Positions 12,329 through 26,451 of a DNA stretch of 64,000 bases are shown in pieces. The translations under genes were made by a program, and so were the position numbers. The stretch's first letter is position 1. Each line of letters opens with the position of its first letter. The notes under the pieces were generated by a model. That model was not told the DNA's origin. It ran no database searches and saw nothing but the letters and a program-made list of their open reading frames with translations. Source of the DNA: Aquipuribacter sp. SD81 (GTDB lineage: Bacteria > Actinomycetota > Actinomycetes > Actinomycetales > JBBAYJ01); NCBI RefSeq assembly GCF_037153975.1, contig NZ_JBBAYJ010000001.1, positions 124,001 through 188,000 of the forward strand, written 5' to 3'.

Positions 12329-13228
12329 ATGGCGATCTTCCTGACCGACCAGAGCAAGGTCATCGTCCAGGGCATGACCGGCAGCGAGGGGCGCAAGCAC
12401 ACCCAGCGCATGCTCACCTCCGGCACCGCCGTCGTCGGGGGCGTGACGCCCGGCAAGGGCGGGCAGTCCGTCGACTTCACCGGCCCCGACGGCGGGGCGG
12501 TGCAGGTGCCCGTCTTCGACTCCGTCGCCGACGCGATGGCCGCCACCGGCGCCGACACCACCGTCATCTTCGTCCCGGCGAAGTTCACGAAGGGCGCGGC
12601 GCTCGAGGCGATCGAGGCGGGCATCCCCCTCGCCGTCGTCATCACCGAGGGCGTGCCCGTCAAGGACACCGCGGAGTTCTTCACCCGCGCCCAGCAGACC
12701 GGCACCACCCGGATCATCGGGCCGAACTGCCCCGGCCTCATCAGCCCCGGGCAGTCCAACGCCGGCATCATCCCCGCCGACATCACGACCGCGGGGAGCA
12801 TCGGCCTCGTGTCGAAGTCCGGCACCCTGACCTACCAGATGATGTACGAGCTGCGGGACCTCGGCTTCACCACGTGCGTCGGCATCGGCGGCGACCCCGT
12901 CATCGGCACCACGCACATCGACTGCCTCGAGGCGTTCGAGAACGACCCCGCCACCAAGGCGATCGTCATGATCGGCGAGATCGGCGGCGACGCCGAGGAG
13001 CGGGCCGCGGCCTACATCAAGGACCACGTCACGAAGCCCGTCGTCGGCTACGTCGCGGGGTTCACCGCGCCCGAGGGCAAGACGATGGGCCACGCCGGCG
13101 CGATCGTGTCCGGCTCCGCCGGCACCGCGGCCGCCAAGGCCGAGGCGCTGGAGGCCGTCGGCGTCCGCGTCGGGCGCACCCCGAGCGAGACCGCGCGGCT
13201 CATGCGGGAGGTCGTCGAGGCCCTCTGA
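12329..13228 (+). CDS. sucD: Succinyl-CoA synthetase, alpha subunit
   Basis: The protein has 299 residues and is the partner of SucC; it binds CoA and carries the transient phosphohistidine. Visible family features are [19 protein letters not shown], the CoA-contacting [28 protein letters not shown], and the phosphohistidine loop [12 protein letters not shown] with its active-site His. The ribosome site GAGAGGG lies upstream. It forms an operon with sucC and probably with the downstream DUF6350 gene. Confidence 0.97.
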
Positions 13229-13316
13229 CGGCCTGCGCACCACGGGCCCCGGCCCGGTCGGTCGCCGACGCGTGTCGGTCGACCACCGGACCGGGGCCTC
13301 GCAGCACCATGGGCCG

Positions 13317-14678
13317 GTGAGCAGCACCCGTTCGCCCGCCCGGCCCGTCGGACGACCGGCCGGACGCCCCGGCGTGCGACCCGGCACGTCGCGAACCGCC
13401 GGCGCCCGTCCCGCGTCCCCCGCTGCGGCCGCAGGCGGCGGCGGCTCGGGCGCGACCCGTGTGCCGCAGCCGGGGCTGTTCGCCGACGTCCGGGCCGCGC
13501 TCTCGCAGTCACTCGGTGCCGTCGCGCTCGGCGTCGTCGTGTGCGTCGCGCTCGTCGCGCTGGGGTGGGCGGGGGAGCCGCAGGCAGGCACCGGCTGGGT
13601 CGACACCCTCCGGGTCGGTGCGCTCGCGTGGCTGCTCGCCCACGCGGGCCGGCTCGAGGTCCACGGCGAGGTCGCGGCGTCGACGTCGCCCGCGGACCCC
13701 CTCGTCCCGGTCGTCGGCGTCGTGTCGCTGCCGGTCCTCGGTCTCGTCCTGCTCGCGGGTCTGCTGGCGGCGCAGGTCGGACGACGGCTGGCCGAGCGCA
13801 CGTGGCCCCTGCCCTCGCTGCTGCTCGTCGGGCTCGTCGCCGCTGTGCACGGCGGTGCGGCGTGGCTGCTGGCCACGACCGCCGGGCTCGCCGACGCCGA
13901 CCCGGTGCCCGCCGCGTGCGCGCTCGGCGCGGCCGCCGTCAGCGGGGCCGGTGCCCTCGTCGGGGCGGCCGACGTCCACGGCCCGGCTGTCGTCGACTCG
14001 CTGCCCCGCGTCGTCCGCTCCCAGCTGCAGCGGGTCCTGCCGGGCGCGGCCGTCGCCCTCACGGTGTGGCTCACGGCGGGCGCGCTGCTCGTCACCACCG
14101 GGCTCGTCCTCGACGTCAGCCAGGCGGTGGACGTCACCGGCCGGCTCGCCCCGGGCCCGCTCGGCGGCGCCGTCCTCGTCGTGCTGCAGGTGCTCCTGCT
14201 GCCGCTGCTCGTGGTGTGGGGCGCCGCGCTGCTCGCGGGTCCCGGGGTGGTGCTGGGGGAGGGCCGGATCGACCTGCAGGGCTCGACGGTCACCGACGCG
14301 CCCGCGCTGCCGCTGCTGGCCGCGCTGCCCGACGCCGGTGCGGCGCCGCTGTGGGCGTGGGGCGGCCCGCTCGTGCTCGTCCTCGCCGGTGGCCTCGCCG
14401 CGTGGCACGCCCATCGGCACACGAGCAGCACCGGCGCGACCGTGGCGGACCGGGTCGCCGACGCCGTGGCGGTGGCCGCCCTGGCCGGCACCGGCGCGCT
14501 TCTGCTCGCGCTCGTGGCGCGGGGCTCGTTCGGGCCGTGGGGACCGCTCGGCGCCGACCCGCTCGCCGTCTCGGCCTGCGTGACCGGCGGGGTGCTGCTG
14601 GGTGGGCTCGCGGTCGGCGCCGCCCTGCACCTGCTGTCGGGGCGGCCGCTGCTCAGGCGCCGAGCCGGGCGACCGTGA
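13317..14678 (+). CDS. DUF6350 family polytopic membrane protein
   Basis: The protein has 453 residues from the GTG at 13317. The first 60 residues are Arg/Pro/Ala-rich and cytoplasmic-like. The rest is a series of about ten hydrophobic helices with short loops. The position between sucD and purN is the conserved location of DUF6350 membrane proteins in actinobacteria, and composition and length agree. Function is unknown. The frame stays open to 13272, but the start at 13317 avoids an unsupported extension. The last 26 bp overlap the end of a convergent gene. Confidence 0.75.
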   Translation: MSSTRSPARPVGRPAGRPGVRPGTSRTAGARPASPAAAAGGGGSGATRVPQPGLFADVRAALSQSLGAVALGVVVCVALVALGWAGEPQAGTGWVDTLRVGALAWLLAHAGRLEVHGEVAASTSPADPLVPVVGVVSLPVLGLVLLAGLLAAQVGRRLAERTWPLPSLLLVGLVAAVHGGAAWLLATTAGLADADPVPAACALGAAAVSGAGALVGAADVHGPAVVDSLPRVVRSQLQRVLPGAAVALTVWLTAGALLVTTGLVLDVSQAVDVTGRLAPGPLGGAVLVVLQVLLLPLLVVWGAALLAGPGVVLGEGRIDLQGSTVTDAPALPLLAALPDAGAAPLWAWGGPLVLVLAGGLAAWHAHRHTSSTGATVADRVADAVAVAALAGTGALLLALVARGSFGPWGPLGADPLAVSACVTGGVLLGGLAVGAALHLLSGRPLLRRRAGRP

Positions 14679-15084
14679 GCTCGCGCAGCCGTTCCTGCAG
14701 CCGGTCGTCGCACGCCTGCTGTGCGGTCCTCGTGAGCGCTCCGGCCACGCACTCCCGGTGCTCGCCGACCACCGGGTAGAACGCGAGCATCAGCGCCTGC
14801 ACGGCGAGCAGCCCGACCGCCAGCGCGACGCCGAGCGCCACCATCGCGGTGCCGAACGGCCCCGCGCCCTCGTCGCCCGCGAGGCGTGCGCGCTTCAGCG
14901 CGCGCAGCGCGCGGACGCCCTGCACGAGGGCCAGCGCCGCGAACACCAGCCCCGCCAGCGCCCACGGCAGCTCCAGGCGGCGCGTCAGCTCCGCGCCGAG
15001 CAGCAGCAGGCCCATCTCCAGCGGCAGCCGCACGTGCGGCTTGGAGAAGGTGCCCGCCACCGTCCGGCCGCTCGTCGTCGCCAC
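14653..15084 (-). CDS. Small membrane protein between DUF6350 and purN
   Basis: The protein has 143 residues and starts with GTG. It has three or four hydrophobic segments (about 22-36, 39-58, 78-105) and a C-terminal charged tail with two Cys-containing stretches (HRECVAGALTRTAQQACDDRLQERLRELTV). The gene runs against its neighbours and overlaps the 3' end of the DUF6350 gene by 26 bp, tail to tail. Comparable genes occur at this place in other actinobacteria. I cannot give a function. Confidence 0.65.
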   Translation of the reverse strand: MATTSGRTVAGTFSKPHVRLPLEMGLLLLGAELTRRLELPWALAGLVFAALALVQGVRALRALKRARLAGDEGAGPFGTAMVALGVALAVGLLAVQALMLAFYPVVGEHRECVAGALTRTAQQACDDRLQERLRELTVARLGA

Positions 15085-15122
15085 CGGTCGATCGTCGCAG
15101 ACGGGCGCGACCCGGGCGCCAC

Positions 15123-15128
15123 TAGCCT
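15123..15128 (+). promoter_or_regulatory. -10 box TAGCCT for purN
   Basis: TAGCCT ends 6 nt before the purN GTG at 15135, the leaderless spacing. Confidence 0.5.
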
Positions 15129-15134
15129 GACGAG

Positions 15135-15785
15135 GTGCCCGCGCCCCGCCTCGCCGTGCTCGCCTCGGGGACCGGCAGCCTCTTCTCCGCCCTCGTCGCC
15201 GCGGCCGGAGCTGGCCGCCTGCCCGCCGACGTCGTCGCCCTCGTCACCGACCGCGACTGCGCCGCCCTCGACCTCGCCGCCCGCTCCGGCGTCGCCGCCG
15301 CGGTCGTGCGGCCGCGCGACTTCGCGGACCGCACCGCGTGGGACGGGGCGCTCGCGGACCACCTGGCGGACCTCGACGTGGAGTGGGTGGTGAGCGCGGG
15401 CTTCATGCGGATCCTCGGTCCGGCGGTGCTCGCCGGGTTCCCCGACCGGGTCGTCAACACCCACCCGGCGCTGCTGCCGTCCTTCCCCGGCGCGCACGCC
15501 GTGCGCGACGCCCTCGCCCACGGCGTCCGGGTGTCGGGATGCACCGTCCACCTCGTGGACGAGGGGACGGACACGGGTCCGGTGCTCGCCCAGGCGGCCG
15601 TGCCGGTGCTCGACGACGACGACGAGGCGACGCTGCACGAGCGCATCAAGGTCGTCGAGCGCGACCTGCTCGTCGACGTCCTCGCCGGCCTCGTGACGGG
15701 CGGGGTGGTCGTCGAGGGGCGGCGCACCCGGTGGCGTCCCGCGCCGGGGCGGACCTCGGCGCCGGCGGCGACGCCCGCTCGCTAG
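15135..15785 (+). CDS. purN: Phosphoribosylglycinamide formyltransferase 1
   Basis: PurN transfers the formyl group of 10-formyl-THF to GAR in the third step of purine synthesis. The 216-residue protein has the N-terminal phosphate-binding [12 protein letters not shown] and the catalytic triad of the family, N108 and H110 in [18 protein letters not shown] and D146 in [13 protein letters not shown]. The GSNL loop of E. coli is GTGSLF here. The C-terminal tail is Arg/Pro/Ala-rich. purH follows 11 bp later. Confidence 0.96.
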
Positions 15786-15788
15786 CCT
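15783..15788 (+). promoter_or_regulatory. -10 box TAGCCT at the end of purN, for purH
   Basis: TAGCCT overlaps the purN stop (its TAG is the stop codon) and ends 8 nt before the purH GTG. purH may therefore be transcribed both with purN and alone. Confidence 0.4.
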
Positions 15789-15796
15789 CGCCCCCT

Positions 15797-17446
15797 GTGA
15801 GCGAGACGACCGCGCCCGACGCGTCCACCCCCGACCAGGCCGGCGCCTCGTCCCGGCGCCCCGTGCGGCGCGCGCTCGTGAGCGTCTACGACAAGACCGG
15901 TCTGGAGGACCTCGCCCGTGGGCTCGCGGACGCCGGCGTCGAGATCGTGTCGACCGGGTCGACCGCCGGGCGTATCGCGGCCGCCGGGGTGCCCGTCACC
16001 CCCGTCGAGGAGCTCACCGGCTTCCCCGAGTGCCTCGACGGCCGCGTCAAGACGCTGCACCCGCGCGTGCACGCCGGGCTGCTCGCCGACCTGCGGCTGG
16101 ACTCCCACCGCGCCCAGCTCGCCGAGCTCGGCGTCGAGCCGTTCGAGCTGGTCGTCGTCAACCTCTACCCGTTCACCGAGACCGTCGCCTCGGGGGCCGC
16201 GCCCGACGAGTGCGTCGAGCAGATCGACATCGGCGGCCCGTCGATGGTGCGCGCCGCGGCGAAGAACCACCCGAGCGTCGCGGTCGTGACCGACCCCGCG
16301 CGCTACGGCGACACGCTCGCCGCCGTCGCCGCGGGCGGCTTCACGCTCGCCCAGCGCGCGCGGCTCGCGGCCGAGGCCTTCGTCCACACCGCCTCCTACG
16401 ACGTCGCGGTCGCGTCGTGGATGGGCAACGTGCTCGCCCCCGACCCGGACGGCGACGGGTTCCCGACCTGGCTCGGCGCGACGTGGGAGCGCGCCGACGT
16501 GCTCCGCTACGGCGAGAACCCGCACCAGCGGGCGGCGCTGTACGTGTCGGGGCGCGACGGTGCGCCGGCCGGGCTCGCGACCGCCGAGCAGCTGCACGGC
16601 AAGGCGATGTCGTTCAACAACTACGTCGACGCGGACGCCGCGTGGCGCGCCGCCCACGACCACACCGAGCCGGCCGTCGCGATCATCAAGCACGCGAACC
16701 CGTGCGGCATCGCGGTCGGCGACGACGTCGCCGACGCGCACGCCAAGGCGCACGCGTGCGACCCGGTGTCGGCGTTCGGCGGCGTCGTCGCGGCGAACCG
16801 GCCGGTGACGCGCGCGATGGCGGAGCAGCTCGCCGACGTCTTCACCGAGGTCGTGCTCGCGCCCGGCTTCGACGACGACGCGCTCGAGGTGCTGACGCGC
16901 AAGAAGAACGTGCGGCTGCTCGTGGCGGCCCCGCCCGCCCGGGGCGCGATCGAGCTGCGGCCGGTGAGCGGCGGGGTGCTGCTGCAGCAGCGCGACGACG
17001 TCGACGCCGCGCTGCCCGCGGGCGACGACGGCCGGCCGACGGGCGGCGACGACCCCGCCGCGTGGACCCTCGCCGCCGGCGAGGCCGCCGACGAGGCGAC
17101 GCTGGCGGACCTCGCCTTCGCGTGGCGCGCCGTACGGGCCGTGAGGTCCAACGCGATCCTGCTCGCCCACGACGGCGCGTCCGTCGGCGTCGGCATGGGA
17201 CAGGTCAACCGCGTCGACTCCTGCCGCCTCGCCGTCGCGCGGGCGGGGGAGGAGCGGGCCCGCGGTGCGGTCGCCGCCTCCGACGCCTTCTTCCCCTTCG
17301 CCGACGGCCTGCAGGTGCTGCTGGACGCGGGTGTGCGCGCCGTCGTGCAGCCCGGCGGGTCGGTGCGCGACGAGGAGGTCGTCGCCGCCGCGCGCGAGGC
17401 CGGCGTCACGCTCTACCTGACGGGCGTGCGGCACTTCGCCCACTGA
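15797..17446 (+). CDS. purH: Bifunctional AICAR formyltransferase/IMP cyclohydrolase
   Basis: PurH performs the last two steps of IMP synthesis. In this 549-residue protein the MGS-like cyclohydrolase domain occupies about residues 22-165 ([56 protein letters not shown]). The AICAR transformylase domain follows ([62 protein letters not shown]). The Lys-His pair of the transformylase active site is visible in IIKHANPCG. The N-terminal 20 residues are a variable extension. It uses 10-formyl-THF, linking it to the folD/glyA/purU genes further along. Confidence 0.96.
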
Positions 17447-17483
17447 TCCGGCGCTCGCTCACTGACCCGGCGCTCGGTCGACC

Positions 17484-17640
17484 GGTCGTGCACGACCTCC
17501 TGCAGGGACGCCGGTCACAGGTCTGCTCACGCACGACCGTCTCGTGCACGACCCGGTCGTAGGCGAGACGGTCGTGCACGAGACGGTCGTGCGCGACCGA
17601 CCTCGGCGGACAGCCGCCTCCCGGGCGGTCGTGCACGACC
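17484..17640. repeat. Cluster of TCGTGCACGA palindromes
   Basis: Four exact copies of the 10-bp palindrome TCGTGCACGA lie at 17486-17495, 17542-17551, 17572-17581 and 17629-17638, and a variant TCGTGCGCGA lies at 17587-17596. The first and last copies are extended to GGTCGTGCACGACC. GAGACGGTCGTGC is directly repeated at 17565-17577 and 17580-17592. The stretch separates convergent purH and mdh and contains no convincing gene. It could be a protein-binding array, a structured 3' UTR or a decaying repeat. Confidence 0.7.
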
Positions 17641-17646
17641 TACCGG

Positions 17647-17668
17647 GCGGTCACCCGAGGGTGACCGC
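17647..17668. terminator. Hairpin terminator at the mdh end
   Basis: GCGGTCACC (17647-17655) pairs with GGTGACCGC (17660-17668) across a 4-nt loop, 16 bp beyond the mdh stop. Confidence 0.5.
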
Positions 17669-17683
17669 CGCGGCAGGAGCCGG

Positions 17684-20049
<2,366 letters not shown>

Positions 20050-20064
20050 GCGACACGGCGTCGT

Positions 20065-20098
20065 GACGGCCGGGGGCGGGTGACCGCTCCCGGCCGTC
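20065..20098 (+). terminator. Hairpin terminator downstream of icd
   Basis: GACGGCCGGG (20065-20074) pairs perfectly with CCCGGCCGTC (20089-20098), and an inner GCGG/CCGC extends the stem. It begins 15 bp after the icd stop. Confidence 0.7.
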
Positions 20099-20143
20099 GT
20101 GCGTCCGTGCCCGTTCGGCCCGAGTTGCCCCGGTCCGGGTGCA

Positions 20144-20165
20144 GGACCATGGTGACGGACCATGG
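20144..20165. promoter_or_regulatory. Direct repeat GGACCATGG at the gntP start
   Basis: GGACCATGG occurs at 20144-20152 and again at 20157-20165, where it contains the gntP start codon. CATGGT in the first copy could be a weak -10 box 8 nt before the ATG. The repeat could be an operator or may be chance. Confidence 0.3.
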
Positions 20166-21694
20166 AACCTGCCTGGTCGGCACCGGTGCTGCTGCTGATC
20201 GCCGCGGTCGCCGTCGCGGTGCTACTCGTGCTCGTCATCCGCCTCAAGCTGCACGCGTTCATCGCGCTCGTCCTCGTCAGCGTCCTCACGGCCATCGCCG
20301 CGGGCATCCCGGCGGGCGACATCCCCGACGTGCTGCTCGACGGGTTCGGCGGGACCCTCGCCGAGGTCGCCCTGCTCGTCGGCTTCGGCGTCATGCTCGG
20401 CCGGCTGCTCGAGGTGACCGGCGGGGCCCAGGTGCTCGCCGACGTGCTCGTGAGCAGGTTCGGCGAGAAGCGGGCGCCGCTGGCGCTCGGTGTCGCGTCG
20501 CTCGTCTTCGGCCTGCCGATCTTCTTCGACGCGGGCCTCGTGGTGTTCCTGCCGATCGTCCTGACGGTCGCGCGGCGCTTCGGCGGGTCGCTGCTGTTCT
20601 ACGCCCTGCCGTCGGCGGGCGCCTTCGCCGCCACGCACGCGTTCCTCCCGCCGCACCCCGGCCCGGTGGCCGCGGCGAACCTGCTCGAGGCCGACATCGG
20701 CATGGTGCTGCTCGTCGGGCTCCTCATCGCGCTCCCGTCGTGGTTCGTCGGCGTCTACCTCGTCTCGCGGGTGCTGGGCCGCCGGATCTTCGTCGACCTG
20801 CCCGACGTCCTGCTCGGCGAGCAGCGCGACTCCCAGGGGCAGCCGAAGCCGCCCCCCGGCGGAGAGGGCGGGGGCGAGCGGGTCGACCTGCCCCCCGCCG
20901 GGCCCGCGGGCACGTCGCCGGCGACCGGCACGACGACGTCCACCGCGACCGTCGAGGCCGAGACCGAGAGGGAGGCGGAGACCACGGGTCAGGAGCGTCC
21001 CGCCGGGGCGCCCGCCTTCGGGACGGTGTTCGGGCTGCTCCTGCTGCCGATCGTCCTCATCGGCCTGAACACGGTTACCGACACGCTGGGCTCGACCGAG
21101 GTCATCGACCCCGGCGGCATCGTCGCCCGCACCTTCCTGCTCGTCGGCCAGACGCCGATCGCCCTGCTCATCACCCTGCTGGTGGCGGTCGTGGTCCTCG
21201 GCCGGCGCCAGGACCGCTCGTGGCGCGACGTCGAGGACCTGCTCGATGGGGCGCTCGGTCCGATCGCCTCCGTCGTGCTCATCACCGGTGCGGGCGGCAT
21301 GTTCGGCGGCGTGCTGGAGGCCAGCGGCATCGGGGGCGCCCTGGAGGACTCCCTCGCCGACATCGGGCTGCCCGTCATCGTCGCCGCGTTCGTCATCGCG
21401 ACGGCCATGCGCGTGGCCATCGGGTCCGCGACGGTCGCGCTCACGACGGCCGCGGGCCTCATCGGCCCGACGGTGGCCGGCGGCGACTACTCCGCCGTGC
21501 AGTCCGCGCTGGTCGTCACCGCCATCGCGGCCGGCGCCACGGTGCTGTCCCACGTCAACGACTCCGGCTTCTGGCTCGTCAGCCGGTTCTTCGGCATGGA
21601 CGAGGCGACGACGCTGCGGACGTGGACGGTCATGGAGACCACGCTCGGCGGGACCGCCTTCCTGCTCGCCCTCGCCGCGTGGGTGGTGGTGTGA
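20162..21694 (+). CDS. gntP: Gluconate:H+ symporter, GntP family
   Basis: The protein has 510 residues and about 12 membrane helices. Family signatures are present: GFGGTLAEVALLVGFGVMLGRLLEVTGGAQVLAD, FGLPIFFDAGLVVFLPIV, ALPSAGAFAATHAFLPPHPGPVAAANLL, and near the C-terminus VLSHVNDSGFWLVSRFFGMDEATTLRTWTVMET. A hydrophilic Thr/Glu/Gly-rich loop of about 65 residues in the middle (roughly 218-283) is longer than usual. It imports gluconate for the kinase encoded next, with which it overlaps by 4 nt. No gntR-type repressor is adjacent. Confidence 0.93.
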   Translation: MEPAWSAPVLLLIAAVAVAVLLVLVIRLKLHAFIALVLVSVLTAIAAGIPAGDIPDVLLDGFGGTLAEVALLVGFGVMLGRLLEVTGGAQVLADVLVSRFGEKRAPLALGVASLVFGLPIFFDAGLVVFLPIVLTVARRFGGSLLFYALPSAGAFAATHAFLPPHPGPVAAANLLEADIGMVLLVGLLIALPSWFVGVYLVSRVLGRRIFVDLPDVLLGEQRDSQGQPKPPPGGEGGGERVDLPPAGPAGTSPATGTTTSTATVEAETEREAETTGQERPAGAPAFGTVFGLLLLPIVLIGLNTVTDTLGSTEVIDPGGIVARTFLLVGQTPIALLITLLVAVVVLGRRQDRSWRDVEDLLDGALGPIASVVLITGAGGMFGGVLEASGIGGALEDSLADIGLPVIVAAFVIATAMRVAIGSATVALTTAAGLIGPTVAGGDYSAVQSALVVTAIAAGATVLSHVNDSGFWLVSRFFGMDEATTLRTWTVMETTLGGTAFLLALAAWVVV

Positions 21695-22344
21695 CCGTGG
21701 CGGACCACGACGGCGACCTGCACCACCTCGTGGTGATGGGCGTCTCCGGCACCGGCAAGTCGACCATCGCCGCGGAGCTGGAGCGCTTGCTGGGCTGGAC
21801 GTTCCTCGAGGGCGACTCCCTGCACCCGCGTCGCAACGTCGAGAAGATGAGCGCGGGCACCCCGCTCACGGACCAGGACCGCGCGCCGTGGCTGCAGGCC
21901 ATCGCCGACTGGACGGCCGTGGAGCACGTCGAGGGCCGCTCGAGCGTCGTCACGTGCTCGGCGCTGCGGCGGGTGTACCGCAACGTGCTGCGCGAGGACG
22001 TGCCCGGCACGTGGTTCGTCCACCTCGTCGGCGACCCGGACCTGATCATGGAGCGGATGGAGACGCGGAAACACTTCATGCCGCCGTCGATGCTGCGGTC
22101 CCAGCTCGACACGCTCGAGCCCCTGGGCGACGGCGAGGACGGCGCCACCTTCGACATCTCCGACACCCCCGAGGCGATCGCCGCGCAGGTGCTCGACCGT
22201 CTCGGTCTCGAGCCGCGGCCCGAGGGCGAGCGGGACGCCGACGCGCAGGACGACGTCGAGGCCGCCGAGGAGGCGGAGGACGCGGAGCAGGAGGGCCGGC
22301 CGGCGCCCGACCGGTCGGCGGACGCGGACGGTCGCAGCGCCTGA
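21691..22344 (+). CDS. gntK: Gluconokinase
   Basis: Gluconokinase phosphorylates gluconate to 6-phosphogluconate for the pentose phosphate pathway. The 217-residue protein has the P-loop GVSGTGKSTIA near residue 16, FLEGDSLHPRRNVEKMSAGTPLTDQDRAPWL, and VTCSALRRVYRNVLRE, all diagnostic. The last 45 or so residues are an unusual acidic tail (DADAQDDVEAAEEAEDAEQE) beyond the normal end of the fold. The GTG start overlaps the gntP stop. Confidence 0.94.
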   Translation: MTVADHDGDLHHLVVMGVSGTGKSTIAAELERLLGWTFLEGDSLHPRRNVEKMSAGTPLTDQDRAPWLQAIADWTAVEHVEGRSSVVTCSALRRVYRNVLREDVPGTWFVHLVGDPDLIMERMETRKHFMPPSMLRSQLDTLEPLGDGEDGATFDISDTPEAIAAQVLDRLGLEPRPEGERDADAQDDVEAAEEAEDAEQEGRPAPDRSADADGRSA

Positions 22345-22360
22345 GGAGGCCGTGCGGCGC

Positions 22361-23224
22361 CTAGCGGAACACGACCGTCCGGTTCCGGTCGACGAGCACG
22401 CGGTGCTCGGCGTGCCAGCGGACCGCACGGGCGAGCGCACGGGACTCCAGGTCCTGCCCGAGGCCCACGAGGTCGTCGACGGCGTGGGAGTGGTCGACCC
22501 GCTCGACGTCCTGCTCGATGATCGGGCCCTCGTCGAGGTCGGCCGTCACGTAGTGCGCAGTCGCGCCGATGAGCTTGACGCCGCGGGTGTGCGCCTGGTG
22601 GTACGGCCGGGCGCCGGCGAAGCTCGGCAGGAACGAGTGGTGGATGTTGATCGCCCGCCCGGCGAGCACCTCGCAGACCCGCGGGCTCAGCACCTGCATG
22701 TAGCGGGCGAGCACGACGAGCTCGACGTCGAGGGTGTCGACGAGGCCGAGCAGCGTCTCCTCCGCGGCCGCCTTCGTGTCCGCGGTGACGGGCACGTGGT
22801 GGAACGGCACCTCGTAGAAGTCGGCGAGCGGCTCGAGGTCGCGGTGGTTGCCGACGACCGCGACCGGCGTGACGGGAAGGCGTCCGGAGCGCTGCCGGTA
22901 CAGCAGGTCGTTGAGGCAGTGCCCGGCGCGGCTCACCATGATGAGCGTGCGGGTGGGCTCGTCGACGCGGTGCAGCTGCCACACGAGGTCGAACTCCTCC
23001 GCCGCGCCGCGCAGCGCCGCGCGCAGCCGCTCCTCCGGGGCGTCGCACGTGAACTGCACGCGCAGGAAGAACAGCCGCGTGTCCGGGTCGCCGAACTGCT
23101 GGGACTCGGTGACGTTCGCGTGGTGGCGCAGCAGCGCGCCCGTGACGGCGTGGACGATGCCCGGCCGGTCGGGGCACGACAGCCGCAGGACGTAGTGCGG
23201 CTCCTGCCTCGCCTCTGGACTCAC
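22361..23224 (-). CDS. purU: Formyltetrahydrofolate deformylase
   Basis: PurU hydrolyses 10-formyl-THF to formate and THF, balancing the one-carbon pools. The 287-residue protein has an N-terminal ACT domain (YVLRLSCPDRPGIVHAVTGALLRHHANVTESQQFGD, about 11-90) and a formyltransferase-like C-terminal domain with VVGNHRDLEPLADFYEVPFHHVPV, VLARYMQVLSP and INIHHSFLPSFAGARPYHQA. The GTG at 23224 is supported by a TAGGCT -10 box 8 nt upstream. It is divergent from the riboswitch-controlled glyA-folD pair. Confidence 0.95.
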   Translation of the reverse strand: MSPEARQEPHYVLRLSCPDRPGIVHAVTGALLRHHANVTESQQFGDPDTRLFFLRVQFTCDAPEERLRAALRGAAEEFDLVWQLHRVDEPTRTLIMVSRAGHCLNDLLYRQRSGRLPVTPVAVVGNHRDLEPLADFYEVPFHHVPVTADTKAAAEETLLGLVDTLDVELVVLARYMQVLSPRVCEVLAGRAINIHHSFLPSFAGARPYHQAHTRGVKLIGATAHYVTADLDEGPIIEQDVERVDHSHAVDDLVGLGQDLESRALARAVRWHAEHRVLVDRNRTVVFR

Positions 23225-23232
23225 GAGCGCGC

Positions 23233-23238
23233 AGCCTA
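23233..23238 (-). promoter_or_regulatory. -10 box TAGGCT for purU
   Basis: On the minus strand TAGGCT ends 8 nt before the purU GTG, predicting a leaderless mRNA. It lies 19 bp from the oppositely oriented glyA -10 box. Confidence 0.5.
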
Positions 23239-23257
23239 CGCAGGCGCGTGCGGTTGC

Positions 23258-23263
23258 TACGCT
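23258..23263 (+). promoter_or_regulatory. -10 box TACGCT for the glyA-folD transcript
   Basis: TACGCT would start transcription near 23270, exactly at the 5' side of the riboswitch aptamer and about 100 nt before glyA. Confidence 0.5.
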
Positions 23264-23268
23264 CGCGT

Positions 23269-23352
23269 CCACCGCGACTGGCGTTGAGGGGGCCACCCCC
23301 GGGGAGCGGTAGGCACGCTGCTGGGTCGTTCGCCTGGGCCCGGGGCACGACC
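23269..23352 (+). promoter_or_regulatory. ZTP (pfl motif) riboswitch upstream of glyA
   Basis: The leader carries the conserved pfl-motif blocks in order: CGCGACTGGCG (23273-23283), CCACCCCCGGGGAGCGG (23293-23309) and CGCCTGGGC (23331-23339). P1 is ACCG/CGGT (23271-23274 with 23307-23310). P2 is GGGGG/CCCCC around CCA. The pseudoknot GGCG (23280-23283) with CGCC (23331-23334) is intact. GGTCGT (23324-23329) can pair with ACGACC (23347-23352), a hairpin enclosing the pseudoknot strand and a plausible expression platform just before the ribosome site. ZTP riboswitches switch on one-carbon genes when 10-formyl-THF is short. Confidence 0.88.
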
Positions 23353-23368
23353 TGACCTGGAGCACGCG

Positions 23369-24691
23369 ATGACCCAGACCCACACGCCGCCCGCTGCCGT
23401 CCGCACCCGCGACGACGACCCCACCGACCTGCCCCTGTGGCAGGTCGACCCCGAGATCGCGGCCGTCCTCGACGGCGAGGCCGACCGCCAGCGCGGCACG
23501 CTCGAGATGATCGCGAGCGAGAACTTCGCGCCGCGGGCCGTCCTGGAGGCGCAGGGCAGCGTGCTGACGAACAAGTACGCCGAGGGCTACCCGGGCAAGC
23601 GGTACTACGGCGGCTGCGAGCAGGTCGACGTCGCCGAGGAGCTCGCGCGCTCCCGCGCCAAGGAGCTGTTCGGCGCCGAGCACGCGAACGTGCAGCCGCA
23701 CTCGGGCGCGAGCGCCAACGCGTCCGTCATGCAGAAGCTCCTCGAGCCCGGCGACACCATCCTCGGCCTCGACCTCGCCCACGGCGGCCACCTCACGCAC
23801 GGCATGCGGCTCAACTTCTCCGGCCGCCTGTACGACGTCGCGACGTACGGCGTGAGCGAGCAGACCCACCGCATCGACATGGACGCCGTCCGCGCGACCG
23901 CGCTCGAGCGCCGTCCCAAGATGATCATCGCGGGCTGGTCCGCCTACCCCCGCCGGCTCGACTTCGCGGCGTTCCGCGCCATCGCCGACGAGGTCGGCGC
24001 GTACCTGCTCGTCGACATGGCGCACTTCGCGGGCCTCGTCGCCGCCGGGCTGCACCCCTCGCCGGTGCCGCACGCCCACGTCGTCACGACCACGACGCAC
24101 AAGACGCTGACCGGCCCGCGCGCCGGGCTCATCCTGTCGACGGCGGACCTCGCGAAGAAGATCGACTCCGGGGTCTTCCCCGGCCAGCAGGGCGGCCCGC
24201 TCATGCACGTCATCGCGGCCAAGGCCGTCGCCTTCAAGCTCGCCATGACCGAGGGGTTCCGGGAGAAGCAGGAGCGCACCCTGCGCGGCGCGTCGCTGCT
24301 CGCCGAGCGGCTGCTGCGCGAGGACGCTCGCGCGACCGGCGTCGACGTCGTGACGGGCGGCACCGACGTCCACCTCGTCCTCGCCGACCTCCGCGCGAGC
24401 GAGCTCGACGGCAAGCAGGCCGAGGACCGGCTCCACGAGGCCGGCATCACCGCCAACCGCAACGCCGTCCCGTTCGACCCGCGCCCGCCCATGGTGACCA
24501 GCGGCGTCCGGCTCGGGACGCCCGCGCTCGCCACCCGCGGCTTCGGCGACGTGGAGTTCACCGAGGTCGCCGACATCGTCGCGGGCGCGTTCGACCCCGC
24601 GAGCGACGTCCGCGCGCTGCGCGAGCGCGTCGACGTGCTGACGCGCGACTTCCCGCTGTACCCGTCCGTCCAGCCGTTCGCGCGCGCGTGA
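23369..24691 (+). CDS. glyA: Serine hydroxymethyltransferase
   Basis: GlyA converts serine and THF to glycine and 5,10-methylene-THF, using PLP. The 440-residue protein has [40 protein letters not shown], the PLP lysine in [16 protein letters not shown], and the C-terminal [34 protein letters not shown]. An N-terminal extension of about 25 polar residues precedes the core. Its stop overlaps the folD start by 4 nt. Control by the upstream ZTP riboswitch is strongly indicated. Confidence 0.97.
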
Positions 24692-25572
24692 GCGCGACGC
24701 TCCTCGACGGCAAGGCCACCGCGGCGGCGATCCGCTCCGAGCTCACCTCCCGCGTCGCCGCGCTCGCGGCGCAGGGGGTGGTGCCGGGCCTCGGAACCGT
24801 GCTCGTCGGCGACGACCCGGGCTCGGCGTCGTACGTCGCGGGCAAGCACCGCGACTGCGCGGAGGTCGGCATCACGTCGCTGCGGGAGGACCTGCCCGCC
24901 TCGGCGAGCACCGACGACGTGCTCGCGGCCGTCGCACGGCTCAACGACGACCCGGCGTGCACCGGGTTCATCGTGCAGCTGCCGCTGCCGGCGCAGGTCG
25001 ACCAGCAGGCGGTGCTCGAGGCCGTCGACCCCGACAAGGACGCCGACGGCCTGCACCCGACCAACCTCGGGCGGCTCGTGCTGCAGGTCTCCGGTGACAT
25101 CACGACGCCGCTACCGTGCACGCCGCGCGGCATCGTCGAGCTGCTCGCGCGCTACGACGTGCCGCTCGCCGGTGCGGACGTGTGCGTGGTCGGCCGGGGC
25201 GTGACGGTCGGGCGACCCATCGGGCTGCTGCTGACCCGCCGGGGCGTCGACGCAACCGTGACGCTCACGCACACCCGCACCCGCGACCTCGCCGCCGCGG
25301 TGCGCCGGGCCGACGTCGTCGTGGCCGCCGCCGGAGCGGCGGGCACGATCCGCGCGGACTGGGTGAAGCCGGGTGCGGCCGTGCTCGACGTCGGCGTCAC
25401 GCGTGTCGTCGACGAGGCGACCGGCAGGGCCCGGCTGGTCGGTGACGTCGACCCCGCGGTGCGCGACGTCGCGGGCTGGCTCGCGCCGATGCCCGGGGGA
25501 GTGGGCCCCATGACGCGGGCGATGCTGCTGGCCAACGTGGTCGACGCCGCGGAGCGGTCGCTCGCAGGCTGA
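24688..25572 (+). CDS. folD: Bifunctional methylene-THF dehydrogenase/methenyl-THF cyclohydrolase
   Basis: FolD makes 10-formyl-THF from methylene-THF. The 294-residue protein shows the substrate-binding [23 protein letters not shown] with the catalytic Lys in YVAGKH, the conserved [38 protein letters not shown], and the dinucleotide-binding [16 protein letters not shown], ending in [19 protein letters not shown]. Coupled to glyA, it completes the serine to 10-formyl-THF route that feeds PurN and PurH. Confidence 0.97.
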
Positions 25573-25591
25573 GGGTCGGGACGGGGGACGG

Positions 25592-25984
25592 TCAGAACGC
25601 GTCGCCGCGGCGCCACGCCATCTCCTGCAGCGTCCAGCCGTTGCCGTCGGGGTCGGCGAAGCCGGCGTAGCGGACCCCGCCCCCGACGTCGACGACCTCG
25701 CCGACCTCCACCCCGGCGGCGAGCAGCGCGTGGCGCGCGGCGGCGATGTCCTCCACGACGAGGTGGAGTCCGCGCACGGACCCCGGCGTGCCGCCGTACG
25801 CCTCGAGCCCGGTGCCGAGGCCGACCGAGCAGCCGGACCCCGGTGGCGTGAGCTGCACGACCCGCACCCCCTCGGCCGGGGTGACGTCGACGTCGGCGAG
25901 GAAGCCGAGGCGCTCGACGTAGAACGCCTTCGACCGGTCGACGTCCGACACGGGCAGCGGGACGAGCTCGAGCTTCATGTGCAT
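25592..25984 (-). CDS. VOC family (glyoxalase/bleomycin-resistance-like) protein
   Basis: The protein has 130 residues with the beta-alpha-beta-beta-beta pattern of VOC proteins: KLELVPLPVSDVDRSKAFYVERLGF at the N-terminus and YAGFADPDGNGWTLQEM at the C-terminus. Potential metal ligands include the Glu in LQEM. The ATG at 25984 has AGGAG 5 nt upstream and overlaps the end of the preceding nucleotidyltransferase gene by 10 bp. The substrate is unknown. It is the third gene of a minus-strand trio. Confidence 0.82.
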   Translation of the reverse strand: MHMKLELVPLPVSDVDRSKAFYVERLGFLADVDVTPAEGVRVVQLTPPGSGCSVGLGTGLEAYGGTPGSVRGLHLVVEDIAAARHALLAAGVEVGEVVDVGGGVRYAGFADPDGNGWTLQEMAWRRGDAF

Positions 25985-26451
25985 GCGGTCTCCTGCGGGT
26001 GGTGGGGCGGGGTGCCCGTCGCATCATCCGCCGTGGCACGCGCGAGCAGCCCGCGAGGGTCGTGCAGGACGCGTACCCCGTCGCGGAGGACGCCGGCTGT
26101 GCCGGGGTCCAGCGGTACGGCCGCCCAGGTGGGCGCGGTGACCCCGACGTCGACCTCCGAGCCGTCGGGACGCCGCAGGCGACGCTCGGTGAGCGGCCCC
26201 CACGCGCGGACCCGGACGGTGCTCACACCCGGTCCGAAAACGGCCGCCACCCAGGTGCCGTCGCCGAGAAGGGCGGCGGGGTCGTCGACGAGCAGGACGA
26301 GGTCGACGTCGGAGCCGGGCCCGGCCGTGCCCCGCGCCCGGGAGCCGACGAGCGCGACCGCCGCGACGTCCGGTCGGGTGCCGGCCCAGCGCGTGACGCC
26401 GGCGAGCAGGTCCTCCACCGCTCCGTCTGGGTCCGGCAGGCCTGGGCTCAC
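25975..26451 (-). CDS. Nucleotidyltransferase-domain protein
   Basis: The protein has 158 residues. The Pol-beta-like nucleotidyltransferase signature is clear: VALVGSRARGTAGPGSDVDLVLLVDD, with the GS and the DxD metal ligands. A third carboxylate is likely in the later SEVDVGV strand. The size suggests a minimal single-domain member, of the type seen in antibiotic-modifying enzymes and in MNT-type antitoxin partners. No HEPN partner is adjacent, so a toxin-antitoxin role is not supported. It overlaps both neighbouring VOC genes and starts at a GTG overlapping the upstream stop. Confidence 0.78.
   Translation of the reverse strand: MSPGLPDPDGAVEDLLAGVTRWAGTRPDVAAVALVGSRARGTAGPGSDVDLVLLVDDPAALLGDGTWVAAVFGPGVSTVRVRAWGPLTERRLRRPDGSEVDVGVTAPTWAAVPLDPGTAGVLRDGVRVLHDPRGLLARATADDATGTPPHHPQETACT

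Follow-up and report, generated by a model that had tools for sequence, protein, structure and literature searches.

A ZMP/ZTP riboswitch before glyA-folD and its divergent purU neighbour in Aquipuribacter sp. SD81

In the 64,000-nucleotide stretch of Aquipuribacter sp. SD81 analysed here (the window), a riboswitch aptamer stands upstream of the one-carbon genes glyA and folD, and purU lies divergently on its other side. The identities proposed for the three genes from the letters alone held when their products were compared with protein profiles: serine hydroxymethyltransferase (SHMT; glyA, 23369-24691, plus strand, ATG at 23369; NF000586, 582.6 bits, cut-off 335), FolD (24688-25572, plus strand; NF010789, 462.6 bits, cut-off 401) and the formyltetrahydrofolate deformylase PurU (22361-23224, minus strand, GTG start, predicted leaderless; TIGR00655, 332.6 bits, cut-off 285.95). 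The stop codon of glyA and the GTG start of folD overlap as GTGA (24688-24691), and SHMT and PurU are each matched just once over the cut-offs in the genome. Together with purN and purH, the three genes lie within about 10.4 kb. The purN-purH pair (15144-17443; purN, TIGR00639, 211.4 bits) is about 5 kb from purU, and its purN has a GTG 6 nt downstream of a TAGCCT hexamer. No ZTP aptamer was found at this pair, though purH follows the aptamer in 23 of the 25 non-glyA ZTP loci that were fetched, and 18 of the 25 have a purN-like gene upstream. Nor was there a sign of a degenerate ZTP aptamer in 13000-17700, where the best match reached 11.1 bits.

The entire 64-kb window was scanned with cmscan against the 4227 families of Rfam 15. 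RF01750, the ZMP/ZTP riboswitch, was the sole family above its gathering cut-off (39 bits), with a match at 23264-23346 on the plus strand that covered positions 1-86 of the 86 of the model at 51.8 bits (E 1.6e-5). The ZTP riboswitch that the sequence-only reading had placed on glyA-folD was thus borne out, save that the match starts at 23264 and not at 23269. A single copy of RF01750 was found in the 3.86-Mb draft genome. In the Rfam alignment, all on the plus strand, the stretch 23271-23310 holds the inner helix of P1 (23271-23275 with 23306-23310), two further pairs (23278-23279 with 23302-23303) and a hairpin (23288-23291 with 23296-23299). The GGCG/CGCC pseudoknot, earlier described as intact, was found at 23280-23283 and 23331-23334 and its letters were checked; P3 pairs 23323-23327 with 23337-23341. 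A Shine-Dalgarno-like GGAG of glyA follows at 23359-23362. The folding energy of the leader as a whole was ordinary (z -0.50).

Of 396 genomes from the order, 270 had an RF01750 match, as did 34 of 296 drawn from the phylum, whose loci were counted only. Covariation was analysed in an alignment of 32 order members (30 distinct rows), in which 14 pairs had changed on both sides (shuffled alignments averaged 8.8, and none of 500 was as high) and in which 90.7% of cells were paired in the named structure, compared with 37-48% in slid versions of it. P1, P3 (two-sided changes in three of its five pairs) and the pseudoknot were conserved with covariation, apart from the pseudoknot pairs, which were 100% paired in the 30 rows yet invariant in three cases out of four, and the four outer pairs of P1, which as aligned were unpaired in 13-16 of the 30 rows each. 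A covariance model built from the 32 members gave the window aptamer 67.9 bits, a score that is not independent since this aptamer is one of the members, and gave the next-best site in 13000-26000 15.6 bits. The score against the Rfam cut-off, taken with the covariation, ruled out a chance match.

The sample of loci comprised 80 purU loci, 33 riboswitch loci and 60 further stretches around known aptamer hits. Scanned with the model from the 32 members, 32 of the 45 actinobacterial purU loci contained an aptamer, partial or weak in three cases (L035, L068, L071), and the 35 proteobacterial loci gave a single weak match (E 0.086); the model also matched all 60 further stretches, which had been picked for their hits. 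In 100 of the 125 loci with an aptamer (95 distinct) the aptamer precedes glyA. glyA and folD are among the five commonest target genes of the pfl motif, for which induction by ligand was predicted, according to the consulted part of Weinberg et al. (2010, PMC2864571). A passage of a 2020 review (PMC7266159) gives ZMP/ZTP as the ligand, assigned by Kim et al. 2015 as cited there, and 10-formyl-THF deficiency as the signal, and a ZTP-glyA unit is reported from Herbaspirillum in a section of PMC7011215. The aptamer of the window is a further member of this class, with targets already on its list, and the riboswitch itself is ordinary.

A simple pattern scan of 23150-23450 gave no sigma-70 promoter, and both -10 boxes of the window therefore rest on comparison with relatives. 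The putative glyA promoter (23255-23263, plus strand) consists of TGC followed by the -10-like hexamer TACGCT. A TANNNT hexamer lies 12-15 nt upstream of the aptamer core ACTGGCG in all 95 distinct ZTP-glyA loci (12 nt in 56, 13 in 30, 14 in three and 15 in six, never two per locus), against a background mean of 0.06 loci per position at positions 18-49 upstream of the core; TGN precedes the hexamer in 45 of the 95. The glyA transcript is therefore predicted to start at about 23270, that is, at P1, and the earlier claim that it begins at the aptamer gains comparative backing. Among the non-glyA ZTP loci, with one that has no core set aside, the distance was 11-15 nt in 18 of 24 and 17-24 nt in the remaining six. 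This adjacency was rejected as a peculiarity of ZTP riboswitches, as the TPP (thiamine) riboswitches of the same order show it as well: of the best-scoring 30 loci from 59 genomes (L174-L203), 24 had TANNNT 0-5 nt upstream of the aptamer match, and 29 had it no more than 15 nt away. Aptamers that abut a predicted promoter are usual for both riboswitch classes examined in the order.

On the other strand, the -10-like TAGGCT of purU (23233-23238, minus strand) lies 8 nt before the GTG at 23224. The leaderless start claimed for this gene found support among its relatives, where an in-frame start codon stood 6-8 nt after TANNNT in 60 of 60 purU loci beside ZTP-glyA (three pairs of these loci being one genome sampled twice), the search for starts reaching 20 codons upstream and 15 codons downstream of the expected position; each of two shifted frames gave 0 of 60. 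Within the 80 purU loci, the pattern was seen in 32 of 32 with ZTP, in four of 13 Actinobacteria without ZTP in the sampled stretch and in two of 35 Proteobacteria, a contrast that follows taxonomy and is no proof of a link to ZTP. A rougher test of the other genes of at least 200 aa, in the 32 loci and the window, had 42 of 197 looking leaderless, with four and one in the shifted frames. purU looks leaderless throughout the ZTP-glyA neighbours of the order, as judged from these sequences.

The two -10 hexamers of the window are separated by 19 bp, exactly as first reported (TAGGCT 23233-23238, TACGCT 23258-23263). Among the 100 ZTP-glyA loci, a divergent purU lies less than 200 bp from the aptamer in 20 (the close loci), is separated from it by a GNAT gene on the glyA strand in 22 and is found at longer distance in 18; two have the GNAT gene but no divergent purU, and in 38 neither was seen in the sampled stretch. 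In L125, L136 and L138, purU is upstream and in the same direction as glyA. In all, a GNAT acetyltransferase gene that shares the strand of glyA immediately precedes the ZTP-glyA unit in 24 of the 100 loci (that of L041, 4425-4934, minus strand, matched PF00583 with 45.5 bits, cut-off 20.7); no tRNA genes were found in the 16 loci with a gene-sized gap. In the sample drawn by riboswitch, divergent purU was present in at least 27 of 66 genomes (five close, 16 with GNAT, six far), a lower bound as the upstream sequence covered 1.1-3.4 kb, mostly 1.5-2 kb.

The close loci belong to the genus of the window (three genomes), to G018, to G257 (L147) and to the Arthrobacter branch. In all but one of these 20 loci a distance of 12-43 bp separates the two -10 boxes, L147 being the exception with 148 bp, and this range led us to reject a fixed spacing; the 22 bp of L046 were measured from its second candidate start, the first having given 1 bp. 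On a quick GlyA tree of 97 of the 100 rows (L039, L043 and L071 were too short), the close label, which includes L147, needs four changes, three of them forced by well-supported branches, and the overlapping-promoter label, with L147 left out, needs three changes, two of them forced; for both labels the changes may be gains or losses. With two forced changes for the overlap label, a claim that overlapping promoters recur in three or more places would go too far. By these sequence comparisons, the back-to-back layout of purU and a predicted ZTP-glyA unit recurs in related bacteria. The record of L046 is named Sporosarcina, its GlyA groups beside Arthrobacter in the tree, and it is possibly mislabelled.

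Fourteen of 19 close loci, every one from the Arthrobacter branch (L046, L048, L054-L058, L062, L066, L070, L081, L094, L099 and L105), carry a second -10-like box 38-43 nt upstream of glyA. It reads TAGCCT in 12 of the 14, and TANNNT occurs in the equivalent stretch between aptamer and glyA in three of 78 other loci. Transcription from this box, if it is a promoter, could circumvent the riboswitch.

The divergent layout may be no more than inherited synteny of a one-carbon/purine neighbourhood, with close packing as compaction and the two promoters independently regulated, and we incline towards this account. It is favoured by the grouping of the five genes in the window, by the frequency of divergent purU in the riboswitch-drawn sample and by the wide variation of the gap between purU and aptamer. 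Against it, tightly packed loci retain two recognisable promoters, and the close layout occurs on separate branches of the tree.

For the locus itself we consider it quite probable that a ZTP riboswitch at the 5' end of the glyA-folD RNA exerts translational ON control, and that purU is made separately from a leaderless mRNA. A riboswitch of the known ZMP/ZTP class would form the 5' end of the glyA-folD transcript. Shortage of 10-formyl-THF would raise ZMP/ZTP and the aptamer would become bound; the ligand would hold P3 and the pseudoknot together and so leave the glyA start region open, and GlyA and FolD could then rebuild 10-formyl-THF. Without ligand, the 5' strand of P3 would be captured by downstream sequence and initiation would be hindered. 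purU would be expressed from its own leaderless mRNA, with a promoter that overlaps that of glyA, and the two promoters probably exclude each other. The aptamer, the genes and the adjacency of promoter and aptamer are established parts of this explanation, all by computation; the identity of the ligand and the ON direction at the window locus would follow from the riboswitch class.

Candidates for the ligand-free pairing were sought in the window leader. Folded as far as 23368, the leader contains the hairpin that had been described as enclosing the pseudoknot strand and lying before the ribosome site (GGGTCGT 23323-23329 with ACGACCT 23347-23353, plus strand; seven pairs, one of them G-U), which is incompatible with P3. 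Its presence stood, but its conservation was not found, and once codons 2-3 of glyA were included, the predicted fold shifted to a longer helix in which the P3 5' strand covers the start codon (a possible anti-start helix within 23320-23377, plus strand, the P3 5' strand region pairing with 23367-23377 over the ATG). Both structures exclude P3, the bound-state element of the class. Four of 200 shuffles gave an anti-start helix as good as that of the window, the start codon and the greater part of the ribosome site are base-paired in the free ensemble, and a fold forced to keep P3 was 10.6 kcal/mol less favourable than the free fold. Keeping the aptamer out of the fold eases opening of the start region by 6.9 kcal/mol in the window and by 1.2 in swapped controls, and the Shine-Dalgarno of the window is not freed (-0.76 kcal/mol). 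Within the genus, P3 was predicted to be lost in L001 and L003 and kept (0.94) in L002.

A conserved anti-P3, anti-start or Shine-Dalgarno-masking structure was sought in two ways among the relatives and was not found. Downstream pairing of the P3 5' strand was not enriched over shuffles in 78 loci (mean z +0.22); these were what was left of 97 loci for which a start had been called, once duplicates and leaders of great or very small length were dropped. The anti-start helix of the window is strong in itself, but a rank of 10 or better of 200 was reached in four of the 78, about four being expected by chance. Over 75 loci, opening of the Shine-Dalgarno equalled that in swapped controls (p 0.48), with p 0.08 for the start region. 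The OFF pairing in the glyA leader of the window is a candidate drawn from its predicted folds, and no general feature of the loci compared.

Control of glyA-folD by transcription termination, intrinsic or Rho-dependent, in place of translation, would fit the failure to find conserved sequestration of the ribosome site over the 75 loci, and terminators overlap many pfl RNAs according to the part of PMC2864571 seen. However, the pattern scan of 23150-23450 gave no terminator-like site, and the window has just 27 nt from P3 to the ATG; we regard termination as unlikely, if a serious contender. Since no terminator-like site was found, and by the habit of the class, translational ON control of glyA-folD is the most likely mode.

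The sequence-only reading had gone further and inferred opposing control of glyA-folD and purU by ZTP. In its two-armed form, ZTP would raise glyA-folD while purU fell through competition at the overlapping divergent promoters. The footprint of RNA polymerase is larger than a -10 spacing of 12-43 bp permits for two polymerases. Two polymerases therefore should not fit at once on the close loci with that spacing, and the divergent layout as read from sequence permits promoter competition. The opposite biochemical effects of glyA-folD and purU, the spacing in 19 of the 20 close loci and the changes needed by the overlap label on the GlyA tree speak for such a scheme. However, the aptamer is confined to the glyA-folD transcript, and promoter overlap alone would not couple purU to ZTP if the aptamer acts after initiation, when promoter use need not change with ZTP. 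Nor is overlap required, since in 40 of the 60 loci with divergent purU a GNAT gene or a wider gap separates it from the aptamer, and three loci have purU co-directional with glyA. We therefore consider ZTP-driven opposition improbable, and purU itself is most likely not ZTP-regulated.

Very unlikely is that both strands sense a shortage of 10-formyl-THF, glyA-folD through ZTP and leaderless purU through strong dependence on formylated initiator tRNA and IF2, so that less PurU would be made as its formyl substrate became scarce, with the overlapping promoters adding competition. In favour, initiation complexes on leaderless mRNAs gain stability from IF2 (PMC2268962, in the part consulted), and purU looks leaderless in 60 of 60 loci beside ZTP-glyA against four of 13 and two of 35 elsewhere, but that contrast follows taxonomy, and the portions of the literature on leaderless initiation that were covered describe no effect of formylation on leaderless mRNAs.

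Were the coupling real, a single divergent promoter pair would join the making of 10-formyl-THF to its breakdown, a compact safeguard against a futile cycle, and the close-layout relatives, with the names Arthrobacter, Paenarthrobacter and Pseudarthrobacter, would lend themselves to its study. What is documented so far is a recurrent purU/ZTP-glyA layout. The open-access literature searched yielded neither a pairing of purU with a ZTP riboswitch nor a formyltetrahydrofolate deformylase with any riboswitch; Kim et al. 2015 was outside this scope and may mention purU.

Compared with known systems, the window shares with the ZMP/ZTP (pfl, RF01750) class a full-length model match, the pseudoknot, the conserved cores and the glyA-folD context. 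It differs in having no terminator-like site, in a transcript predicted to start at P1 and in its divergent purU neighbour, the pairing not met in print. In the pfl riboswitch of Clostridium beijerinckii, as described in the part of PMC10085676 seen, an invading downstream strand removes P3 and the pseudoknot when ligand is missing, and the same is proposed for the window; there, however, the invader forms a terminator hairpin, and none was seen in the window. purU, for its part, resembles the leaderless genes of Actinobacteria (PMC3160421, PMC3898074), in which a few bases separate a -10-like box from the start codon, and it differs from them only in showing this pattern in all 60 loci examined beside ZTP-glyA.
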